Positions 7,926-30,844 of a stretch of 64,000 bases of DNA are shown in pieces. A program made the position numbers and the translations under genes. The notes under the pieces are model-generated. The model was not told the origin of the DNA. It saw nothing but the letters and a program-made list of their open reading frames with translations, and did not search any database. Source of the DNA: Anaeromyxobacter diazotrophicus (GTDB taxonomy: Bacteria; Myxococcota; Myxococcia; Myxococcales; Anaeromyxobacteraceae); NCBI RefSeq assembly GCF_013340205.1, contig NZ_BJTG01000001.1, positions 124,001 to 188,000 on the forward strand, read 5' to 3'. Positions within the stretch are counted from its first letter, which is position 1, and each line of letters opens with the position of its first letter.

Positions 7926-8783
7926 CTACCGCTCCCCCCACCGGAGCTTCGTCCGCAGGATGCCGAAGTAGTCGATCCGCGGGCTCTGCACGAGCAGCAC
8001 GCGGTTCTGCGACTGCTTGATCTGCACGCGGTCGCCGGGCTGCAGCTGCAGGCCGGTCTGGCCGTCGAGGGTGAGGTAGACCTCGCTCTCCGGCGCGAGC
8101 CGGATGTTGAGGGTGCGGTCGTCGGGCAGGACGATCGGGCGCTGCGTCAGCATGTGCGGGCAGATGGGGGTGAGGATGACGCCGCGCATGGTGGGGAAGA
8201 GGATGGGGCCATTCGCCGCCAGTGAATAGGCGGTCGAGCCGGTGGGGGTGGCGACGATGATGCCGTCCGCCTTGTAGGTGGTGACGAGGTCGTCCGAGCA
8301 GGTGACCTCGAACTCCGCCATGCGCGAGAGCGTCCCCTTCGCCATGACCGCGTCGTTCAGCACCTCGGTGTCCAGGAGCTTGAGCTCGCCGCCGCCAGGG
8401 GCTTGCCGGTGCACGTGCACCCGCAGCTTCATCCGCTCCGAGAGCACCGCCTGCCCGGACAGGACGTGGTCGAGCGCCTGGTAGAGCTCCGCCTGCGGCA
8501 CCTCGGTGAGGAAGCCGAGGCTCCCCATGTTGACGCCGAGGATGGGCGCCGGCCGGCCGGCCAGGATGCGCGCCGCGTGGATGAGCGTGCCGTCGCCGCC
8601 CAGCACGAGCACGAGGTCGGCCCGCCGCGCCGCCTCCTGCTCGTCGACGAGCACCGTGAGCCCCCGCGCCGCGATCGCGGCCGCCGCCTCCGCCGCGCAG
8701 GCGGCCGCGGCGCGCGAGCTCTGCTTGTGGACGATCCCTACGGAGCGGGGGACGGGGCAGGTCGTGGGCGGCATCCGGCGCAT
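7926..8783 (-). CDS. nadK: NAD kinase
   Basis: Phosphorylates NAD to NADP with ATP or polyphosphate. The 285-residue protein has the GGDGT motif (LVLGGDGTLIHAAR, about residue 60), MGSLGFLTE, and the second family block KADGIIVATPTGSTAYSLAANGPI near 185, with a C-terminal GDRVQIKQS barrel segment. Two ATGs compete: 8783 and 8774 (MPPTTCPVPRSVGIVHKQ). Neither has a Shine-Dalgarno sequence, but a perfect TATAAT at 8787-8782 on this strand would make the 8774 start leaderless. The gene diverges from rarA with only 18 bp between the start codons. Confidence 0.95.
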   Translation of the reverse strand: MRRMPPTTCPVPRSVGIVHKQSSRAAAACAAEAAAAIAARGLTVLVDEQEAARRADLVLVLGGDGTLIHAARILAGRPAPILGVNMGSLGFLTEVPQAELYQALDHVLSGQAVLSERMKLRVHVHRQAPGGGELKLLDTEVLNDAVMAKGTLSRMAEFEVTCSDDLVTTYKADGIIVATPTGSTAYSLAANGPILFPTMRGVILTPICPHMLTQRPIVLPDDRTLNIRLAPESEVYLTLDGQTGLQLQPGDRVQIKQSQNRVLLVQSPRIDYFGILRTKLRWGER

Positions 8784-8790
8784 TATATAA
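8782..8790. promoter_or_regulatory. TTATATAA element between divergent nadK and rarA
   Basis: This is an AT-only octamer in an otherwise GC-rich region. On the minus strand it supplies TATAAT for nadK; on the plus strand TATATA or TATAAG lies about 12 bases before the rarA ATG. No good -35 box is visible on either side. Confidence 0.4.
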
Positions 8791-8801
8791 GCTGGCGCGA
8801 C

Positions 8802-10115
8802 ATGGACCTGTTCGACCACGCAGCGGAGCAGGACGACTCCGGGCGGCCCCTGGCGGAGCGCCTCCGCCCGCGGCGGCTCGAGGACTTCGTCGGGCAGGAG
8901 CACGTGCTCGGGCCGGGGCGCGCGCTCCGGCGCGCCATCGAGGCCGACCAGGTGCCGTCGCTCGTGCTGTGGGGGCCGCCCGGCACCGGCAAGACCACCC
9001 TCGCCCGCATCATGGCCGAGCGCACCGGCGCGGTGTTCGTCCCCTTCAGCGCGCTCATGGGCGGGGTGAAGGAGATCCGGGAGATCGTGCAGGCCGCGCG
9101 CGACCGCCGGCGCATGCAGCGGCAGCGCACGCTCCTGTTCGTCGACGAGATCCACCGCTTCTCCAAGGCGCAGCAGGACGCCTTCCTGCCGCACGTCGAG
9201 GAGGGGGTGGTCACGCTCATCGGCGCCACCACCGAGAACCCGTCGTTCGAGATCAACGCCGCCCTCCTCTCCCGCTGCCGGGTGGTGACGCTGCGCGCGC
9301 TGACCGAGGAGGAGGTGGGCGCGCTGCTCGACCGGGCGGTGGCCTCGCCCCGGGGGCTCGGCGGCGACGTGGCGCTCTCGGCCGGCGCCCGCGAGCTGTT
9401 CGCCCGCTACGCCTACGGCGACGCGCGCCGGGCGCTCAACGCGCTCGAGGTCGCCGCGGCGGCGGCGCGGCTGGCCGGCCGCAAGGAGATCCTGCCCCCG
9501 GACGCGGAGGAGGCGCTGCAGCACAAGGCGCTGCTCTACGACAAGGCGGGGGAGCAGCACTACGACGTCGTCTCCGCCTTCATCAAGTCGCTGCGCGGCA
9601 GCGACGCCGACGCGGCGGTCTACTACCTGGTGCGGATGCTGGAGGCGGGCGAGGACCCGCGCTTCGTGCTGCGCCGGATGGTGATCTTCGCCAGCGAGGA
9701 CGTCGGCAACGCCGACCCGCGCGCGCTCGGGGTGGCGGTGGACGCGCTCCAGGCGGTGGAGCTGGTCGGGCTGCCGGAGGGCGTCCTGCCCATGACCCAG
9801 GCGGCGGTCTACCTGGCGCTGGCGCCCAAGTCGAACGCCGCGCTCACCGCCTACGCGGCGGCGCGGCGGCTGGTGACCGAGAAGGGGCCGCTGGGGGTGC
9901 CGCTCAAGCTGCGCAACGCGCCCACGAAGCTCATGCAGGGGCTCGGCTACGGCGGGGGCTACCGCTACCCGCACAACTTCGACGGGCACTACGTGCCCGA
10001 GCAGTACCTGCCCGACCCGCTGCGCGGGGAGCGGATCGTCGAGCTGTCGGGGAACGGCCTGGAGGAGGAGCTGGCCCGGCGCCTGGCGGCGCTGCGAGGC
10101 CGCTCGCGAGAGTAG
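8802..10115 (+). CDS. rarA: Replication-associated recombination ATPase RarA (MgsA)
   Basis: A 437-residue AAA+ ATPase related to clamp-loader subunits and RuvB that acts at stalled replication forks. Seen: the N-terminal LAERLRPRRLEDFVGQEHVLG block, Walker A GPPGTGKT (about residue 62), Walker B LLFVDEIHRF (about 112), sensor 1 ATTENPSFEIN, arginine finger SRCR, and the long C-terminal MgsA domain (DPRFVLRRMVIFASEDVGNADP, then LGYGGGYRYPHNFDGHYVPEQYLP). The frame is open much further upstream, but MDLFDHAAEQ at 8802 is the family start and lies beside the TTATATAA element. The short spacing before the ATG suggests few or no leader bases. Confidence 0.95.
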   Translation: MDLFDHAAEQDDSGRPLAERLRPRRLEDFVGQEHVLGPGRALRRAIEADQVPSLVLWGPPGTGKTTLARIMAERTGAVFVPFSALMGGVKEIREIVQAARDRRRMQRQRTLLFVDEIHRFSKAQQDAFLPHVEEGVVTLIGATTENPSFEINAALLSRCRVVTLRALTEEEVGALLDRAVASPRGLGGDVALSAGARELFARYAYGDARRALNALEVAAAAARLAGRKEILPPDAEEALQHKALLYDKAGEQHYDVVSAFIKSLRGSDADAAVYYLVRMLEAGEDPRFVLRRMVIFASEDVGNADPRALGVAVDALQAVELVGLPEGVLPMTQAAVYLALAPKSNAALTAYAAARRLVTEKGPLGVPLKLRNAPTKLMQGLGYGGGYRYPHNFDGHYVPEQYLPDPLRGERIVELSGNGLEEELARRLAALRGRSRE

Positions 10116-10211
10116 CGCCGCGCGCCGCGAACGAGTTGCGACAGGCGCCGGATGGACTAATCTCTCGGCCGCTTTCGACCAAGCGCCGCCGTCGCGGCGC
10201 CGGAGAGGTTC

Positions 10212-10595
10212 ATGCTCCTGGTGAAGACGTACCTCGCGGAGAGCGGCATCCACGGGATCGGGCTCTTCGCGGCGCAGCGCATCCCCGCGGGCACGGTGGT
10301 GTGGCGCCTCGAGCCCAGCCTCGACCTGGAGCTCTCCGCGGCGCAGATCGAGGCGCTCGCGCCGCCCGCCCGCGAGCAGGTCCGCAAGTACACCTACCTC
10401 GACCTCGTGCGGAAGAGCTACGTGCTCTGCGGCGACGACGCGCGCTTCTTCAACCACTCCGACGCGCCCAACTGCCACGACTTCCCCGACGCCGACGGCG
10501 GCGCCACGGTGGCGGCGCGCGACATCGCCGAGGGCGAGGAGCTGACGAGCGACTACGCCCGCTTCGACGCGGAGCACGTCCCGTACGGGAAATAG
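10212..10595 (+). CDS. SET domain-containing protein
   Basis: A 127-residue protein that is almost entirely a SET domain, the fold of protein-lysine N-methyltransferases that use S-adenosylmethionine. All hallmark blocks are visible: GIHGIGLFAAQRIPAGTVV (SAM-binding GxG), RFFNHSDAPNC (the RFxNHxxxPNC pseudoknot motif) and EGEELTSDYARF (ELxxDY). There is no pre-SET region and no cysteine-rich post-SET, so substrate recognition must be minimal or need a partner. GAGAGG lies about 5 bases before the ATG. Bacterial SET proteins are known, but targets are usually undefined; the neighbouring rarA and lipoprotein give no clue. Confidence 0.85.
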   Translation: MLLVKTYLAESGIHGIGLFAAQRIPAGTVVWRLEPSLDLELSAAQIEALAPPAREQVRKYTYLDLVRKSYVLCGDDARFFNHSDAPNCHDFPDADGGATVAARDIAEGEELTSDYARFDAEHVPYGK

Positions 10596-10596
10596 C

Positions 10597-10632
10597 AAGG
10601 GCCGGGCCCGCCGCTGGCGGACCCGGCCCCTT
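10597..10632. terminator. Bidirectional hairpin between convergent genes
   Basis: A 16-17 bp stem (AAGGGCCGGGCCCGCC against GGCGGACCCGGCCCCTT, one mismatch and one bulge, loop GCT) starts right after the SET-gene stop and ends 13 bp before the lipoprotein stop. The arms end in AA/TT but no long T-run follows. Confidence 0.55.
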
Positions 10633-10645
10633 CACGCTGCGACGG

Positions 10646-11530
10646 CTAGTGCGAGAGCGCCACGAGCGCCGAGCCGCAGCCGGTCCAGGTGATCTTGGCG
10701 GCGGCGTCCGCGTACTGGGGGCCGCTCGCGCCCTGGGGCAGCGCCGTCCAGACGCGCTTCGCCTCGAGCGTCCCGCCCGTCACGCAGGCGGGGGTCCCGG
10801 CGTAGGTGACGTCGATGACGAGCGCCTCGGCCACCCCGACCGACGCGGACTGGCCCTGCGCCGAGAAGGTCATGCCCATGTCGGCCAGGAACTCGCCCTT
10901 GAAGGTGGTGTCGGTCACCGCCAGGGCGCCAGACTCGTGGAACTTGACCGTGGCGGACCCCGGCGGCGTGAAGCTGGTGAGCGCGAGCGTGCTCGCCAGC
11001 GAGAGATCCCAGGCCAGCTTGGCGGCCGCCGGATCGTACGCCGCCCAGCCGTCCACCACGACCTTGCCGGAGGCGGACGGGTCCACGATGGTGAGGGTGC
11101 AGCCGCTCAGCGTGACCTTGGCGGCGGTCGCGACCACGCAGGTCGCCTCGTTGTCGAAGGAGGTGCTCGAGGTGCTCGAGGACGGCACCGCGGTCAGCGC
11201 CTTGCTGAGCGCCGCGCGCCGGCCGGCCGCGACGAGCTGCTGCTGGGCCGGGTCGGCCGAGGCGAGCGTCACGCCCGTACTGCTGCCGAGCAGCGCGTCC
11301 GTCACCCCGGCGAAGTCGCCCAGGGACTGCACGCCGTCGGCGCCGGGGGCGGACTTCACCGCCAGGGCGCTCGAGAGCTGCGTGTCGACCGCGCTCGTCT
11401 GCAGGCTGGTCGCCGTCGACGCCGTGCCGTAGCTGAACGTCTTGCCGGCCGCCGCGTTCCCGCTGCTGCCGCCGCCGCACGCCGCGAGCGCCAGGCACGA
11501 GGCCAGCGCCACCGCCATCCGCTTCGTCAT
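10646..11530 (-). CDS. Putative lipoprotein of unknown function
   Basis: A 294-residue protein that I do not recognise. It begins MTKRMAVALASCLALAACGGG: a basic N-region, a hydrophobic core and a lipobox LAAC at the end, so signal peptidase II processing and lipidation are likely. The mature part is Ala/Ser/Thr-rich, with several short beta-like repeats and two Cys pairs (TCVVATAAKVTLSGC and ACVTG...WTGC) that could form disulfides in the periplasm or on the outer membrane. GGAGGGA lies 6 bases before the ATG. It stands alone, convergent with the SET gene and divergent from the hydrolase. Confidence 0.7.
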   Translation of the reverse strand: MTKRMAVALASCLALAACGGGSSGNAAAGKTFSYGTASTATSLQTSAVDTQLSSALAVKSAPGADGVQSLGDFAGVTDALLGSSTGVTLASADPAQQQLVAAGRRAALSKALTAVPSSSTSSTSFDNEATCVVATAAKVTLSGCTLTIVDPSASGKVVVDGWAAYDPAAAKLAWDLSLASTLALTSFTPPGSATVKFHESGALAVTDTTFKGEFLADMGMTFSAQGQSASVGVAEALVIDVTYAGTPACVTGGTLEAKRVWTALPQGASGPQYADAAAKITWTGCGSALVALSH

Positions 11531-11559
11531 GAGATTCCCTCCGTGTGAGTGAGAGCCTG

Positions 11560-11576
11560 CCCCGGTCAGGCCGGGG
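11560..11576 (-). other. Hairpin in the lipoprotein leader
   Basis: CCCCGG-TCAGG-CCGGGG is a 6-bp stem with a 5-nt loop, 30 bp upstream of the lipoprotein ATG and inside the 195-bp divergent region. It may be an operator or an mRNA leader structure. Confidence 0.25.
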
Positions 11577-11725
11577 TCACTGCCGCGCAGGGTACAAGAC
11601 CTGTTCGTGACCGCAAGTGAACCAAGCGGCGCCAGCCGCGGGCGGAGTGCGTCTCGCCCCCACCTCCCCGCACCGGCGCCGCCGACCGGGGGCGCGCGCC
11701 GCCCCCGGGCGCTATCCTCCGCCCC

Positions 11726-12352
11726 GTGATCCTCTACCTGCACGGCTTCGCCTCCGGGCCCGGCTCCACCAAGGGCCGCGCGCTCGAGGCGCGCTTCGCC
11801 GCCCTCGGCGTCCCGCTCCACCGCGCCGACCTCACGCCAGGCGAGGACGGCTTCGAGCGCTCCACCCCGCTCACCATGCTGGCCGAGGCGGAGCGGCTGG
11901 TGGCGCGGCATCGCCCCACCGTCCTCATGGGTAGCTCGCTGGGCGGCTGGCTCGCGGCCGTCCTGGCCTCGCGCGACCCGTCGATCGAGCGGGTGGTGCT
12001 GCTCGCCCCGGCCTTCCGGCTCCACGAGCGCTGGCGGGCGCACCTCTCGCCCGAGGACGAGCGCCGCTGGCGGGCGGAGGGGCTCCTCGTCGATCACCAC
12101 GCCACCGGGACGAAGCGCCGGCTGGGCTGGGCGTTCCTGGAGGACGCGGCGAAGCTGCCCGCCTACCCCGAGGTGAAGGTGCCGGCGCTGTGCCTCGCCG
12201 GCCGGCGGGACGAGCTCGTGCCGCTGGCCGACGTCGAGCGGTTCGCCGCGATGACGCCGGGCGCGCGGCTCGTGCCCCTCGACGACGGGCACGAGCTGGT
12301 CGCGTCGGTCGACCGGATCTTCGAGGAGGCGCGGGCGTTCCTGGGGGTGTAG
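11726..12352 (+). CDS. YqiA/YcfP-like alpha/beta hydrolase
   Basis: A 208-residue compact esterase-like hydrolase. The N-terminus MILYLHGFASGPGSTKGRALEARFAALG is typical of the YqiA family, with the oxyanion-hole HGF. The nucleophile elbow is GSSLGG (about residue 72), the acid is likely the Asp of AGRRDELVPL, and the His is in DDGHEL near residue 191. There is no signal peptide. The start is GTG. YqiA-type proteins cleave short acyl esters in vitro, but their physiological substrate is unclear. Expression probably starts in the divergent region shared with the lipoprotein gene. Confidence 0.82.
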   Translation: MILYLHGFASGPGSTKGRALEARFAALGVPLHRADLTPGEDGFERSTPLTMLAEAERLVARHRPTVLMGSSLGGWLAAVLASRDPSIERVVLLAPAFRLHERWRAHLSPEDERRWRAEGLLVDHHATGTKRRLGWAFLEDAAKLPAYPEVKVPALCLAGRRDELVPLADVERFAAMTPGARLVPLDDGHELVASVDRIFEEARAFLGV

Positions 12353-12385
12353 TGGCGGAGGCGGGCGGGGTTGCGCGGCCCCGCG

Positions 12386-12452
12386 GCGACCGCGACTGCG
12401 ACCTCGACCTTCGACCGCGACCTCGACCTCGACCGCGACCGCGACCTCGACC
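12386..12452. repeat. Hexanucleotide tandem repeat (KCGACC)n
   Basis: Eleven head-to-tail hexamers alternate between GCGACC and TCGACC, with one GCGACT variant and one inserted T. The array lies 34 bp after the hydrolase stop, between two convergent genes. It is not plausibly coding. Confidence 0.75.
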
Positions 12453-12475
12453 TGCGGACGGCACCGCCGGCCAGA

Positions 12476-12696
12476 GGGCGGCGGGGTGGCCCTCCGAAGG
12501 AGCGGAGGCCGACCTGCGTGAGACTCCCGCCCGCCGTACTGCCGCCAGCAACGCCGGTGCCGCGCCGGCGCGCGGACCTCGTGCGCCGTGGCGGCGCGGC
12601 ACGATGCGTTGCCCGGCCTCCCCGCGTTTCTGAGCCGGCCGCCGTACCCAGCCGGAAGGTCGTCCGGAGCGACGCAGGAGGGCCACCCCGCCGCCC
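12476..12696. mobile_element. MITE-like element with 20-bp terminal inverted repeats
   Basis: GGGCGGCGGGGTGGCCCTCC (12476-12495) is exactly inverted at 12677-12696. Inside, a second inverted pair brackets the centre: CAACGC..GTGCCGCGCC on the left, GGCGCGGCAC..GCGTTG on the right. No open frame here has a credible start or family motif, and no transposase is present. No clear target-site duplication is seen. With the hexamer array it accounts for most of the 438-bp gene-free gap 12353-12790; in the rest I see nothing. Confidence 0.45.
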
Positions 12697-12790
12697 GCTC
12701 GGAACCGCCGCCAGCGTTTCCCTGCGCCGAGGCGGCGCCCCTCCCACCGTGGGGGACGGGCGCGGCCACCGGGTTCGGGTTCGGGTCGGC

Positions 12791-14269
<1,479 letters not shown>

Positions 14270-25928: not shown

Positions 25929-27746
25929 TTACCCGAGCGCGAGCGCCGCCGCGGAGATCGCGGCGGCGCCCAGCGCGAGCCAGGCGACCGACTCGCCGAT
26001 GCGCCCGCCGTGCAGCTGCCGCAGCGCCCGGATCGCCGGCCCCCAGGCGGCGGCGACGGCGGCGCGCAGCCGCTCCGGCAGCCGCCGTCGCAGGAGCACG
26101 GCCAGCGCCAGCGCCAGCGCGCCCGCCGCGAACGCTCCGCCTCGCGCGGCGGCCGGCCCGAGCGGCGCCTCCAGGGTGCGGGACACCGGGGGGAGCGGGG
26201 TGCCCTGCAGCACGCGCGCGGCGTAGCCGGGGCCGTCGGCGAAGCGCGCCCCGGCCGCGCGCGCCCCCTCGCCCAGTCCGGGCCACAGCCCGGCGGCGAG
26301 CCCGAAGCCGAGGAGGAGGAGCGCCGGCAAGGACATGGTGAGCGGGATCCGCTCGCGGGAGGGGCGCGTCTCCGGCGCCTCCGACGTCTCCCCGCCGGTC
26401 TCGGGCGCGTCGGGCTCGCGCGGCCCCAGCCCGGCGAAGATGCGGAGCGCCGCGCGCAGCACGGCCGCCCCGGTCACCGCCGCGGCCAGCGTGAAGAGCC
26501 AAGCCAGCGCCTGGTGGCCGGAGGCGCGCAGCGCCTCGTCGAGCAGCGCGTCCCCGCGGAAGAGCGCGAAGGGCGGCGCGCCGGCGAGCGCCAGCCCGCC
26601 GGCGCCGAGCACCACCGCCGGGACGGCGAGGCGCCGCCCGCGCCCGCGCAGCGCCACCTCGTCCACCGAGCGCAGCCGGTGCAGCACCATCCCGGCGCCG
26701 AGGAAGAGGGCGCCCTTCACGAGCCCGTGGCCGAGCGCATACACCGCCGCCGCGGCGTAGCCGCCCGGGGTGGCGAGCGAGAGCGCGGCGAGGAGCAGGC
26801 CGCCGTGGGAGACGGTCGAGAAGGCGAGGAGGCGTTTCAGGTGCCGCTGCGCGAAGGCGAGCGCCGCGCCCACCCAGGCCGTGAGGAGCCCGAGCCCGAG
26901 CAGCGCCGCCCCCAGGGCGTGGCCGCCCGGCGGCAGGAGGCCGTGGAAGGCGGTCGCGGCGAGCCGCATGACGGCGTAGAGGCCCGCCTCCACCATGACC
27001 CCGGAGAAGAGGACGCAGGCCGGGGTGGGCGCCACGGCGTGCGCGTCGGCCAGCCAGAAGTGGAACGGGACGGCGGCCCCCTTCACCAGGAACCCGGTGG
27101 CGAGCAGGGCGAAGGCGAGCAGCGTCACCGGCCGGGGCGCCCCCGGGACCGCGACCGTGAGCTGCGCCAGCGAGAGCGCGCCGGTGGCGCCGTAGAGGAG
27201 GGAGAGCCCGAAGAGCACCAGCGTGGCCCCGAGCGTGTTCACCACCGCGAAGTGGAGCGCCCCCTGCACCACCGCCGGCTCCTCCGTCTTGTAGCCGGCG
27301 AGCGCGTAGGCGGAGACGCTCATGAGCTCGAAGAACACGAACAGGTTGAAGAGGTCGCCCGTGAGGCCGAAGCCGGTGAGCGCCGCGACGAAGACGAGCA
27401 GGAGGACGTGGAAGTGCCCCTCGGCCGAGTCGAAGTAGCGGAAGGAGAAGACGAGCGCGGCCGCCCCGAGGCCGCAGGAGAGCGCCGCGAGCCCCCCGCC
27501 GACCGGGTCCACCGCCAGGGCCACCCCCACCGCGATCCCGCCCCGCGGCCTCCAGCCGCCCAGCCACGAGACGACCAGGTCCTCCCGGCCGCGCCAGGCG
27601 CACGCGGCCGCGAGCGCGCCCGCCGCGAGGAGCGCCAGGAGCGCGACGGCGTCGCGGGCCCAGCGCGGCAGGTGGCGGCCGACGGCGGCGAGGAGCGCCG
27701 CCGCGAGCACCGGGAGGACCACCGCCAGCGGCGCCAGCCGCTCCAT
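25929..27746 (-). CDS. mnhD: Na+/H+ antiporter subunit D (MrpD/MbhH-like)
   Basis: A 605-residue multi-pass membrane protein of the NuoL/M/N proton-channel family. Conserved elements include ALAVDPVGG, LFNLFVFFELMSVSAYALAGYK with the key Glu, the proton-path Lys in TGFLVKGAAVPFHFWLADAHAVAPT, and the HGLVKGALFLGAG block. It has about 14 hydrophobic helices plus a C-terminal extension after residue 500. It is the only NuoL/M/N-type subunit in this operon, so it should carry the proton translocation. It is the last gene, 7 bp after mnhC. Confidence 0.93.
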   Translation of the reverse strand: MERLAPLAVVLPVLAAALLAAVGRHLPRWARDAVALLALLAAGALAAACAWRGREDLVVSWLGGWRPRGGIAVGVALAVDPVGGGLAALSCGLGAAALVFSFRYFDSAEGHFHVLLLVFVAALTGFGLTGDLFNLFVFFELMSVSAYALAGYKTEEPAVVQGALHFAVVNTLGATLVLFGLSLLYGATGALSLAQLTVAVPGAPRPVTLLAFALLATGFLVKGAAVPFHFWLADAHAVAPTPACVLFSGVMVEAGLYAVMRLAATAFHGLLPPGGHALGAALLGLGLLTAWVGAALAFAQRHLKRLLAFSTVSHGGLLLAALSLATPGGYAAAAVYALGHGLVKGALFLGAGMVLHRLRSVDEVALRGRGRRLAVPAVVLGAGGLALAGAPPFALFRGDALLDEALRASGHQALAWLFTLAAAVTGAAVLRAALRIFAGLGPREPDAPETGGETSEAPETRPSRERIPLTMSLPALLLLGFGLAAGLWPGLGEGARAAGARFADGPGYAARVLQGTPLPPVSRTLEAPLGPAAARGGAFAAGALALALAVLLRRRLPERLRAAVAAAWGPAIRALRQLHGGRIGESVAWLALGAAAISAAALALG

Positions 27747-27753
27747 GGCGCGG

Positions 27754-28128
27754 CTAGCCCCTGAGCCGCGTCAGGCGGTCGGGGTGGAGCGAGTGCGCGG
27801 CGGCGTGCGCCTTCACCACCAGCGCGAGCAGGAGCGCCGTCACCGTCGCCCCTACCACCACGTCGGTCAGCATGAGCGCCTGCACGATGGGGTCCACCAG
27901 CGGCGCGCCGGGCGGGGGGTAGCCGTCGGACGGCAGCGTGAGCGGCGCCGCCCCGCCGCGCCGCCAGCCCACGCCGAGGAGCACGAGGTAGGTCGAGCTC
28001 TGCACCACCGAGAGGCACACCACCAGGTGGACCAGGTTCTTGCTGGTCGCGACGCCCCACACGCCGCAGAGCAGGAGCCAGGCGGCGGCGGCCCACGGCA
28101 GCGCTCCGGCGGCGCCCGCGAGCGTCAC
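27754..28128 (-). CDS. mnhC: Na+/H+ antiporter subunit C (MrpC/NuoK-like)
   Basis: A 124-residue protein with three hydrophobic helices, related to NuoK and MbhG. The core WGVATSKNLVHLVVCLSVVQSSTYLVLLGVG and the DPIVQALMLTDVVVGATVTALLLALVV block with its acidic residue are typical of MnhC. The GTG start overlaps the previous stop as GTGA. It would form part of the membrane arm next to subunit D. Confidence 0.9.
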   Translation of the reverse strand: MTLAGAAGALPWAAAAWLLLCGVWGVATSKNLVHLVVCLSVVQSSTYLVLLGVGWRRGGAAPLTLPSDGYPPPGAPLVDPIVQALMLTDVVVGATVTALLLALVVKAHAAAHSLHPDRLTRLRG

Positions 28129-28889
28129 CAGCCCCCCTCCAGCCGCTCCTCGAGCGCCTCGGCCAGGAAGACGGTGAGGAGGAGCAGGAGCCCGCCGGCG
28201 ACCGCGAGCGCCACCGCCAGGTTGAGCGGGAGGATGGTGCCGGCCGAGAGCACGTCCCCGATCTGCCCGGCCGGCAGCACGTTCTCGAGGTAGGCCCGGC
28301 GGGCGAGGAGCCCGAGGAGCCCGGTCGCGGCGTAGAGGCCGATCCCGGCGCCCTCGCCGATCGCGACCAGCAGGCGCGGCGCGATCCGGCGGAAGACGTC
28401 CGCCTCCATCGCGAGGTAGACCGAGAGCGGCACCGTCGCGAGCACCACCCCGCCCTGGAACCCGCCGCCGGGCGAGACCTGCCCGTGGGTGGCGAGGTAG
28501 AGGCCGAGGCAGACGCCGGCGCCCGCGAGCCCCCCGCCGAGCACGCGCACCGCGCTGCTGGTGGGGGGCGGCCGCCGGCCGGCCGCGCGGTCGCGCTCCT
28601 CCGCGTGGCCCTCGCGGCGCGGGCCCTGCCGGAGCAGGAGGCCCGCGCCCGCGACCGCCGTGAAGAGGATGAGCTCCTCGCCGAGCGTGTCGAAGCCGCG
28701 GTAGTCGAAGTTGACGGCCGCCACCGCGTCCCCGGCGCTCCGCTCGGGCGCGGACCGCCGCGCCAGGAGATCGCCGTAGGCGCTCGCCCCCTCCCCCGCG
28801 GGCGGCAGGCGCGCCAGGCCGGCGGCGAGCGCGGCGGCGAGGACCAGGAGCCCCGCCCACAGCACGGCCGCGCGCCCGCGCGCGCTCAC
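28125..28889 (-). CDS. mnhB: Fused MbhE-like and MnhB antiporter subunit
   Basis: A 254-residue membrane protein in two parts. The first 90 residues (VAAVNFDYRGFDTLGEELILFTAVAGAGLLL) match the extreme C-terminus of MrpA, which is the separate subunit MbhE in archaeal hydrogenases. The rest is MnhB: LYLATHGQVSPGGGFQGGVV near residue 135 and a four-helix region ending EALEERLEGG. A polar linker (GPRREGHAEERDRAAGRRPP) joins them. GTG start in a GTGA overlap with the previous gene. The fusion shows how the MrpA tail can be divided differently from the usual bacterial operon. Confidence 0.85.
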   Translation of the reverse strand: MSARGRAAVLWAGLLVLAAALAAGLARLPPAGEGASAYGDLLARRSAPERSAGDAVAAVNFDYRGFDTLGEELILFTAVAGAGLLLRQGPRREGHAEERDRAAGRRPPPTSSAVRVLGGGLAGAGVCLGLYLATHGQVSPGGGFQGGVVLATVPLSVYLAMEADVFRRIAPRLLVAIGEGAGIGLYAATGLLGLLARRAYLENVLPAGQIGDVLSAGTILPLNLAVALAVAGGLLLLLTVFLAEALEERLEGGW

Positions 28890-29164
28890 CGCGCCGCCCC
28901 GCCGGTGCGCTCGCGCCGGTGGCGCTCCGCGTCGCGCCGGATCTTCGCCAGCGAGAGCAGGATGACGAGCGGCAGCGCCACCGCCCCCACCACGAGCTGC
29001 GAGAGCGCCACGTCCGGCGCCTGGTGCAGGAAGAAGAGCAGCGCCAGCACGAGCCCGAAGAGGCTCACCACGAGCGCCTGCGCCAGCGGCTCGCGGGTGA
29101 GCACCACCCCGGTCCCCACGGCGGCGGCCAGCACGAGCACGGCGATCCGGAGCGCCTCGATCAC
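28886..29164 (-). CDS. DUF4040/MbhD-like antiporter subunit
   Basis: A 92-residue protein with three hydrophobic helices. Its VVSLFGLVLALLFFLHQAPDVALSQLVVGAVALPLVILLSL pattern, with the APDVA acidic motif, is the MbhD segment found inside the C-terminal part of MrpA in ordinary Mrp operons. Here it is a free gene. GTG start overlapping the mnhG stop (GTGA) and GTGA overlap with the next gene. Confidence 0.82.
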   Translation of the reverse strand: MIEALRIAVLVLAAAVGTGVVLTREPLAQALVVSLFGLVLALLFFLHQAPDVALSQLVVGAVALPLVILLSLAKIRRDAERHRRERTGGAAR

Positions 29165-29490
29165 GCGCCCTCCTCCCGCTCCGGCGGCCAGCGCCGGTGC
29201 TGGCGCACGAAGGCGGCGCGCGCCAGCGCGTGCGTCACCACCCCGTTCAGCACCGTCAGGAGCGCGGTGACGAGGAGCGGCTTCACCGCCGCGAGCGGGC
29301 CCGCCTCGAGCGCGATGGCGCCGGTGAGCAGCGCCGCGCCCAGCGTCGAGGGCGGCGCCACGAAGTGGAGCCGCTGCCACGGGTCGCGCATCACGGCCAG
29401 CCCGAGCGCGCAGGCGAGCGTGAGCAGCACGGCGGCGCCGGCCAGGAGCGCCGCGAGCCCGTGCTGGAGCGCGCCCCAGCTCACAGCCAC
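29161..29490 (-). CDS. mnhG: Na+/H+ antiporter subunit G (MrpG/MnhG)
   Basis: A 109-residue protein with three membrane helices. The MnhG signature RDPWQRLHFVAPPSTLGAALL is clear (family pattern MRLPDxYTRLHAxxxxxTLG), as is the KPLLVTALLTVLNGVVTHALARAA helix. The start may be GTG at 29490 or, giving the GTGA overlap seen at most other junctions, GTG at 29484. Required for assembly of Mrp complexes in studied bacteria. Confidence 0.9.
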   Translation of the reverse strand: MAVSWGALQHGLAALLAGAAVLLTLACALGLAVMRDPWQRLHFVAPPSTLGAALLTGAIALEAGPLAAVKPLLVTALLTVLNGVVTHALARAAFVRQHRRWPPEREEGA

Positions 29491-29729
29491 CGCTCCAGGA
29501 AGCGCGCGAAGACGAGGCCGCCGCCGAAGGACATCACCCCCAGGGTGAGGGCCAGGTCCTGGAACGCGGCCGGCCCGAAGGCCTGCGCCAGGGCGAGCAG
29601 GAGGAGCGTCAGGATCACCCCCGCCATCTGCAGCCCGGCGGCGCGGTCGACCGGGTCGCCCCGCAGCACGACCACCACCGGCCCGAGCAGCGCCAGGAAG
29701 AGGCCGGCGGCGGCGAGCCGGAAGATCAC
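29481..29729 (-). CDS. mnhF: Na+/H+ antiporter subunit F (MrpF/MnhF)
   Basis: An 82-residue protein with three membrane helices. ALLGPVVVVLRGDPVDRAAGLQMAGVILTLLLLALAQ carries the conserved GPxxxDR block of MrpF/MbhB, including the Asp implicated in ion transport. GTG start overlapping the mnhE stop as GTGA. It is short enough to be missed by gene finders requiring an ATG. Confidence 0.87.
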   Translation of the reverse strand: MIFRLAAAGLFLALLGPVVVVLRGDPVDRAAGLQMAGVILTLLLLALAQAFGPAAFQDLALTLGVMSFGGGLVFARFLERWL

Positions 29730-30232
29730 GGCCGCGCCCCCAGCCGCCGGGTCATGTCGGGCACCTCGCTCCGCTCGAGCTGGTGGAACCAGAGGAGCCC
29801 GCGCTCCGCGTCCACCCCGAGCACGATGAAGTTCGGGGTCATGGTGGTGTAGGCGACCGCGAGGGCGCGGCGCGCCTGCTCGCGCGGGCCCGGACCGCCG
29901 GCGTCGAACCGGACCGCGAGGAGCAGCGAGGGGGCCGGCCGCCCGCCGAGCTGGCGCGCCAGGACGCGCAGGATCTCGACCGTCCCGGTGAAGGCGTAGG
30001 GCGCGACCTGCCAGCCGGCGAGGAGCCACCGGCCCGCCCCGGCGAAGGTGGCGCCGTTGCGCGACCAGACGAGGCGCGAGGCGACCGCGGCCAGCAGCGC
30101 CGCGCCCGCGCCGACCGCGAGCTCGGAGGGCGCGAGCCGCTGGGTGAACGCGAGCCAGGCCGCGTAGGCGCCCGCGAGGTGGAGCGCCCATTCGACGGCG
30201 CGGCGACGCACGGTGGGCGCGGGCTCGGGCAT
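29726..30232 (-). CDS. mnhE: Na+/H+ antiporter subunit E (MrpE/MnhE)
   Basis: First gene of the antiporter operon, 168 residues. Two or three hydrophobic helices (WALHLAGAYAAWLAF, ELAVGAGAALLAAVASRLVW) precede the soluble domain with the MnhE hallmark VAYTTMTPNFIVLGVDAERGLLWFHQLE (family TPGT...D...L..H). The ATG at 30232 is preceded on the minus strand by a perfect 11-bp hairpin ending 6 bases upstream of it, which would block ribosome loading when folded. No Shine-Dalgarno sequence is obvious. Confidence 0.88.
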   Translation of the reverse strand: MPEPAPTVRRRAVEWALHLAGAYAAWLAFTQRLAPSELAVGAGAALLAAVASRLVWSRNGATFAGAGRWLLAGWQVAPYAFTGTVEILRVLARQLGGRPAPSLLLAVRFDAGGPGPREQARRALAVAYTTMTPNFIVLGVDAERGLLWFHQLERSEVPDMTRRLGARP

Positions 30233-30415: not shown

Positions 30416-30844
30416 ATGCCCAGCATCGAGAAGTACATCAAGCGCGACGTCATCGCCCTCGACGCGTCCACGACCTGCGCCGACGCCGCCCACCTCATGG
30501 AGGCGCGGCGCATCGGCTCGGTCGGCGTGCGGCGCGACGGCAAGCTCGTCGGCCTCGTCACCGAGCGCGACCTCGTCTACGGCGTCATGGCCAAGGGCGA
30601 GAGCCTGCAGAAGCCGCTCGGCGAGGTCATGCGCGCGGACCGGCCGGCGGTGACGCCCACCACCACCGAGCGGGACGCCGCGCACCTCATGCAGGCGCAC
30701 CAGACGCGGCACCTGCTGGTGAAGAGCGACGGCGAGGCGATCGGGGTCATCTCCATGCTCGACGTGCTGTCGCTCATGCTCGAGGACAACCGCTTCCTCA
30801 TCGAGCAGCTGCACACGTACATCCGCGGCGGCCGCGGCGGGTAG
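30416..30844 (+). CDS. CBS-domain pair protein
   Basis: A 142-residue protein made of two CBS motifs, one Bateman module. CBS1 is around residues 5-60 (VIALDASTTCADAAHLMEARRIGSVGV..GLVTERDLVYGVM) and CBS2 around 70-130 (VTPTTTERDAAHLMQAHQTRHLLV..GVISMLDVLSLM). Such stand-alone pairs bind adenine nucleotides or other small molecules and regulate a partner. The two ERD or LDV sites after the last strand of each motif are the usual phosphate-contact positions. GGAGGA lies 4 bases before the ATG. It converges with the sensor-kinase gene, stops 11 bp apart. The partner protein is unknown. Confidence 0.9.
   Translation: MPSIEKYIKRDVIALDASTTCADAAHLMEARRIGSVGVRRDGKLVGLVTERDLVYGVMAKGESLQKPLGEVMRADRPAVTPTTTERDAAHLMQAHQTRHLLVKSDGEAIGVISMLDVLSLMLEDNRFLIEQLHTYIRGGRGG

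Follow-up and report, generated by a model that had tools for sequence, protein, structure and literature searches.

What does an Mrp-type antiporter operon do when it lacks the large MrpA subunit and stands apart from any redox complex? The question is raised by seven genes at positions 25929-30232 of a 64,000-nucleotide stretch of Anaeromyxobacter diazotrophicus DNA (GCF_013340205.1, contig NZ_BJTG01000001.1, positions 124,001-188,000 of the forward strand), hereafter the window. The operon encodes a free-standing, Mbh-like antiporter module with a single MrpD, MbhE fused to B, and no MrpA, and it belongs to a widely scattered Mrp subfamily in which most residues assigned to Na+ transport have been replaced. 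Our analysis favors, with a probability of roughly 60%, a derived, proton-translocating Mrp complex with altered cation coupling; judged from its sequence, the ordinary sodium/proton exchange that its name suggests is probably not its function.

Residues of the Proposed Na+ Path

A Na+ path has been proposed for the Mrp complex of Anoxybacillus flavithermus, running through MrpF Asp35, MrpA Glu706 (MbhD Glu69 in the archaeal membrane-bound hydrogenase, MBH), MrpC His37 and His40, MrpD Glu137, and MrpA Asp792/Glu796 (Steiner and Sazanov, PMC7419157). These positions were compared between a clade, counted as the A. diazotrophicus operon and 31 further loci, and other Mrp-type loci. Clade members were picked by D alone, and the outside sequences were chosen by D similarity and are not a random sample. 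The residue signature described below is nevertheless spread over four different genes.

In MrpF, for which clade counts come from position-checked genes, the operon has Gln34 at the essential Asp35 site and keeps Asp28 (D29f); Asp35 is found in none of 32 clade members (five have Glu), as against 50 of 63 outside sequences. The MbhD-type protein carries Gln56 and Gly60 at the coupling Glu positions (E69d/E706a), and an acid at either position is present in 3 of 32 clade members versus 56 of 61 outside domains. MrpG retains His42g and has Gly at Pro86g. The two acids of the MbhE half, Asp67 and Glu71 (D792a/E796a), are kept and are invariant in the alignment. MrpC reads Gln43-Ser44-x-x-Tyr47 in the second transmembrane helix (TM2) and has acquired Asp89 after Thr88 in TM3. 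Across the clade the TM2 columns show Gln at S36c/D37g, Ser, Ala, Thr, or Val at H37c, and Tyr at H40c; the Gln...Tyr pair and the Asp after the conserved Thr occur in all 32 members, and that Asp occurs in no outside sequence.

Loss of the Na+-path acids characterizes this clade and cannot be put down to the lack of MrpA, since loci outside it with comparable gene content keep the coupling Glu. One of these (L125) has the full gene order and one D; three others (L084, L092, and L096) each carry a single D, and no MrpA was detected in them within the limits set by their contig ends.

The D subunit retains Glu140 (TM5), Lys222 (TM7), and His340, each present in 31 of 31 clade members. The TM8 Lys is replaced by Glu253 and the TM12 Lys by Asp399. 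At the TM8 site 28 of 31 clade members have an acid and none has Lys, which is found in all 32 MrpA and in 80 of 89 other D-like sequences; at the TM12 site, 24 of 31 clade members still have Lys.

In the Streptomyces loci examined (L061-L083), MrpE is reduced to about 55 residues with one or two membrane helices by hydropathy and without the soluble domain, and MrpF is followed by an in-frame, two-helix remnant of MrpG upstream of MbhD.

Predicted Proton Movement and Cation Coupling

With the proton half-channel residues of MrpD intact, protons would be expected to pass through D under the proton-motive force. The cation pathway between MrpF, MbhD, MrpC, and MrpD appears to have been rebuilt: conserved acids have been lost, the TM8 Lys has given way to an acid, and TM3 of MrpC has gained an acid, which we propose as a replacement site. 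Proton flow may then be coupled, via this new acidic site and the conserved Asp/Glu pair of MbhE, to something besides canonical Na+ antiport. A different cation could cross by a new route, or the complex could move only protons, in the service of pH homeostasis. The lost residues, whose roles are taken from one structural model, suggest that the complex no longer couples to Na+. A wider formulation is tentative, and we would put it somewhat short of even odds: a widespread Mrp-derived complex may no longer transport Na+, a charge-swapped MrpC/MrpD site instead passing protons or some other substrate, while MrpE, F, and G, formerly its Na+ module, shrink in Streptomyces.

Several observations weigh against altered coupling. 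Among the outside sequences, both acids are missing from 5 of 61 MbhD domains and Asp35 from 13 of 63 MrpF proteins, so these acids are not strictly universal. The MrpC histidines also vary in other Mrp-type loci, mostly to Asn at the second site, and changes there carry less weight than those at other sites for this reason. The residue assignments come from a single structural paper (PMC7419157), and the Na+ path proposed there is a matter of debate. Finally, every subunit of the Na+ module is present in the A. diazotrophicus operon, including full-length MrpE and MrpG, and MrpF Asp29, MrpG His42, and both MbhE acids are kept.

These points fit an ordinary group 3 Na+/H+ (or K+/H+) antiporter in which the changes are tolerated or compensated (for example, the MrpC Asp for the MbhD Glu) and which serves Na+ and pH homeostasis as in Pyrococcus furiosus. 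The stand-alone Mrp of that archaeon, also without MrpA, is reported to use Na+ and to aid growth at falling pH; its deletion raises sensitivity to acidification, and the authors conclude that Na+ is the coupling ion (PMC8415708). The same authors, however, report conserved ion-path residues in their Mrp (PMC8415708), whereas loss of the coupling Glu, of MrpF Asp35, and of the MrpD TM8 Lys is clade-wide here, and MrpE and MrpG are truncated in Streptomyces. We therefore consider ordinary antiport unlikely, though deserving of serious consideration.

The distinction bears on a wider problem. The way in which Mrp, MBH, and complex I link proton and sodium movement remains in dispute, and only a few structures and mutants underlie the proposed Na+ path. 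A clade that keeps the MrpD proton-channel residues without the proposed Na+-binding residues and, in the Streptomyces lineage, without much of MrpE and MrpG offers a ready-made natural test of the Na+-path model. Continued Na+ exchange by the clade would mean that the model is wrong or incomplete; without such exchange, the clade would show what the bare module does.

Operon Structure and Gene Content

The preliminary description of the locus had given the gene order as E-F-G-MbhD-(MbhE+B)-C-D, and this order, including the MbhE-B fusion, was confirmed in seven intact open reading frames (ORFs) on the minus strand. Adjacent genes overlap by 4 to 10 nucleotides at five of the six junctions, mostly at GTGA, and C and D are separated by 7 nucleotides; because the junctions overlap or nearly abut, the genes form a single operon rather than a chance succession of ORFs. 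Pfam models matched six of the seven proteins above cut-off (MrpF, PhaG/MnhG, MbhD, MnhB, Oxidored_q2 for C, and Proton_antipo_M for D), while MNHE and the MbhE half scored below the cut-off of 27 bits each at the expected positions (Table 1). NCBIfam names and Protein Data Bank (PDB) matches agree with the Pfam identities, the NCBIfam scores all being below their cut-offs.

Table 1. Genes of the antiporter operon and the adjoining gene, in window coordinates
Feature	Coordinates	Strand	Length	Evidence and remarks
mnhE/mrpE/mbhA homolog	29726..30232	-	168 aa	Full length, including C-terminal soluble domain; Pfam MNHE 24.2 bits (cut-off 27), position, clade E model 90 bits
mnhF/mrpF/mbhB homolog	29481..29729	-	82 aa	GTG start; Pfam MrpF_PhaF 37.9 bits, alignment with 6z16_F
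mnhG/mrpG/mbhC homolog	29161..29490	-	~108 aa	Pfam PhaG_MnhG_YufB 44 bits, alignment with 6z16_G
mbhD-type subunit (part of MrpA C-terminal domain)	28886..29164	-	92 aa	Pfam MbhD 53.2 bits
mbhE + mnhB fusion	28125..28889	-	254 aa	Pfam MnhB 70.2 bits, MbhE 19.6 bits; 6u8y_E, E = 2.8e-16
mnhC/mrpC/mbhG homolog	27754..28128	-	124 aa	Oxidored_q2 58 bits; 6cfw_G, E = 7.8e-16
mnhD/mrpD/mbhH homolog	25929..27746	-	605 aa	Proton_antipo_M 171.5 bits; 6cfw_H, E = 4e-43
Divergent two-CBS-domain protein gene (neighbor)	30416..30844	+		Pfam CBS
aa, amino acids.

The absence of MrpA, also noted in the preliminary description, extends to the whole genome: an mrpA gene was looked for and none is present, because the MbhD domain occurs only once genome-wide, in the separate small gene of the operon. 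A 690-aa NuoL-type gene on contig C8 was considered as an orphan MrpA and rejected, as it sits with NuoM and NuoN.

An AlphaFold2 model of D (25 sequences) has a mean predicted local distance difference test (pLDDT) score of 87.6 and a predicted template modeling (pTM) score of 0.92. Residues 1-513 match MrpD of Bacillus pseudofirmus (7qru_D; Z 44.5, root-mean-square deviation [rmsd] 1.9 over 481 residues), and NuoL chains of Escherichia coli carry the fold match from 515 to 588 (Z ~40, rmsd ~3.2); Foldseek agrees. As modeled, D is an MrpD core (1-515) with a C-terminal extension (516-605) resembling part of the NuoL C-terminus, and a motif near its end, LHSGxxGDYxAWL, is conserved in the clade. 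The MbhE+B model was of low confidence (pLDDT 69.7) and was left out of the fold search.

Genomic Context

As the preliminary description had it, D is the only NuoL/M/N-type subunit in the operon; it is one of ten genes with antiporter-like domains in the genome. The others comprise a NuoL, M, and N trio on each of C6 and C8 and three genes in a Hyf-like cluster on C3. The C8 genes (8302-13416; L045) form a NuoL-M-N group alone beside selA/selB-like genes; a NuoK-type gene lies on C5 (57204-57482), and C6 carries NuoD- and NuoH-type genes in a second set. Together the C8 trio, the C5 gene, and this second C6 set are apparently a split second complex I. The C3 cluster (~488281-497544; L043:8281-17544) encodes a HycE-like protein, three antiporter-like proteins, a HyfE-like protein, and a NuoH/HycD-like protein. 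The CxxC motif is absent from its 49-kDa-like (HycE-like) protein, which is consequently not a NiFe hydrogenase; the cluster resembles an Ehr-type hydrogenase 4 relative whose NiFe site has been lost.

Docking of the operon's products with another redox complex had been raised in the preliminary description. It would resemble the docking of MbhA-H with a hydrogenase module; the subunit set is the same as in MBH, and candidate partners exist in this genome in the two complex I sets and the Hyf-like complex. No redox genes flank the operon, however, in agreement with the earlier observation that hydrogenase genes are missing there: the 49-kDa-type genes found lie on C3 and C6, none near the operon, and no NiFe-hydrogenase-like or sulfane reductase module (J-N subunits) is linked to it. 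Clustering of flanking proteins revealed no redox-related neighbor common across the clade and recovered mainly genes that Streptomyces share through local synteny, VanZ-like and DUF4230 genes among them. Both complex I sets and the Hyf-like complex, moreover, have antiporter-like subunits of their own, and docking is very improbable.

The CBS-domain gene is treated here only as a neighbor of the antiporter operon. Its homologs occur in 19 of 24 family genomes, all except that of A. diazotrophicus itself being without an MbhD gene, and a second homolog (51%) of the two-CBS-domain protein is located on C13. No clean empty insertion site was found in the family genomes, where mobA and CBS homologs lie at unlinked places.

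Distribution, Phylogeny, and Selection

The arrangement is not the standard form of the phylum. The MbhD domain was found in 1 of 24 family genomes, and D relatives at E < 1e-60 in 3 of 195 Myxococcota genomes, with 52% and 58% identity in the two besides A. diazotrophicus; in many other Myxococcota with MbhD, the domain lies inside an open frame of MrpA size. In the genome collection, for which counts of D relatives are lower bounds, one set of relatives at ~38-59% identity stands apart from the rest (<=36%), with the exception of a single truncated Streptomyces locus (L088). Among the matches listed, this set includes Streptomyces, Kitasatospora, Nocardia, Pseudonocardia, Amycolatopsis, Actinomadura, a member of the Thermoleophilia, Planctomycetota, Methylobacterium, and myxobacteria. 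Clade loci share one layout of E, F, G (intact or remnant), MbhD, MbhE+B, C, and a single D gene. Judged by title or abstract, no paper describing this clade was found in the literature searched.

The phylogenetic comparison proposed in the preliminary description was carried out for D. A tree was built by a quick maximum-likelihood method from 150 D-like and MrpA-like domains, with the root placed for drawing only. In it the clade members fall on one branch with 100% support in the Shimodaira-Hasegawa-like approximate likelihood ratio test (SH-aLRT); this branch belongs to the MrpD side of the MrpA/MrpD split, and its stem is 0.92 changes per column long. An apparent second label change is due only to L055, which is the same record as L051. 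The nearest outside branch (support 84, long branch) is a Desulfurococcaceae locus (L107) with the order F-G-MbhD-B-C-E-D and one D; its MbhD coupling positions are Tyr/Ser, and it has an Asp in TM2 of MrpC.

The tree gave no support to the ancestral-type single-channel Na+/H+ module that had also been suggested, taken here as a module from which Mrp and MBH grew. A minimal subunit set and the occurrence of the same gene order in archaea (L125) would suit such an origin. The clade nonetheless looks derived because it is long-stemmed and lies within the MrpD half, because it has lost Na+-path residues that most relatives keep, and because E and G are shortened in Streptomyces; we regard an ancestral module as highly unlikely.

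Across 10 Streptomyces, the median ratio of nonsynonymous to synonymous substitution (dN/dS) is 0.18-0.28 for the four core genes covered (D, C, the MbhE+B fusion mEB, and the MbhD gene mD); these genes are under purifying selection and are therefore maintained. Such values make a decaying, non-functional operon the least credible explanation, despite the lost functional residues and the patchy distribution, and decay also sits poorly with seven intact, coupled ORFs and new invariant residues.

Comparison with Known Systems

The preliminary description considered the operon unusual in kind, and here it needs revision: the architecture is already known, since the group 3 Mrp of P. furiosus and other fetched loci share it. 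Archaeal and bacterial loci alike show this order, with either a single D (L125) or more than one (L048, L049, L089, L095, L099, and L120).

Group 1 and 2 Mrp systems (Anoxybacillus flavithermus, Bacillus pseudofirmus, and Dietzia) share subunit families and the MrpD core with the operon. They have an MrpA with a NuoL-like half fused to the MbhD/MbhE domain, whereas the operon has no MrpA N-terminal antiporter domain, its MbhD and MbhE are separate from one, and its Na+-path residues are replaced. The C-terminal extension of D is partly matched by NuoL of complex I, yet D groups with MrpD in the tree and not on the MrpA/NuoL side.

The membrane halves of archaeal MBH and of membrane-bound sulfane reductase (MBS) (MbhA-H and MbsA-H) have the same subunit order, and the MbhE+B fusion resembles MbsE of P. 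furiosus MBS. Among solved chains, D is closest in sequence to 6cfw_H and 6u8y_H (MBH/MBS). The operon differs from both in having no hydrogenase or sulfane reductase module and in the extra C-terminal segment of D.

The closest counterpart in organization is group 3, which is defined by the absence of mrpA and for which P. furiosus provides a stand-alone mrpEFGBB'CD with one MrpD (PMC8415708). The A. diazotrophicus operon likewise encodes Mrp subunits B-G, with an MrpD-type protein as its only antiporter subunit and no redox module, in the order E-F-G-(MbhD/MbhE)-B-C-D. P. furiosus, in contrast, fuses MbhD to MbhE, where the A. diazotrophicus operon fuses MbhE to B, and the C-terminal extension of MrpD is particular to the latter. 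P. furiosus Mrp is reported to have the ion-path residues and to use Na+; in the A. diazotrophicus operon the coupling Glu, MrpF Asp35, and the MrpD TM8 Lys have been replaced.

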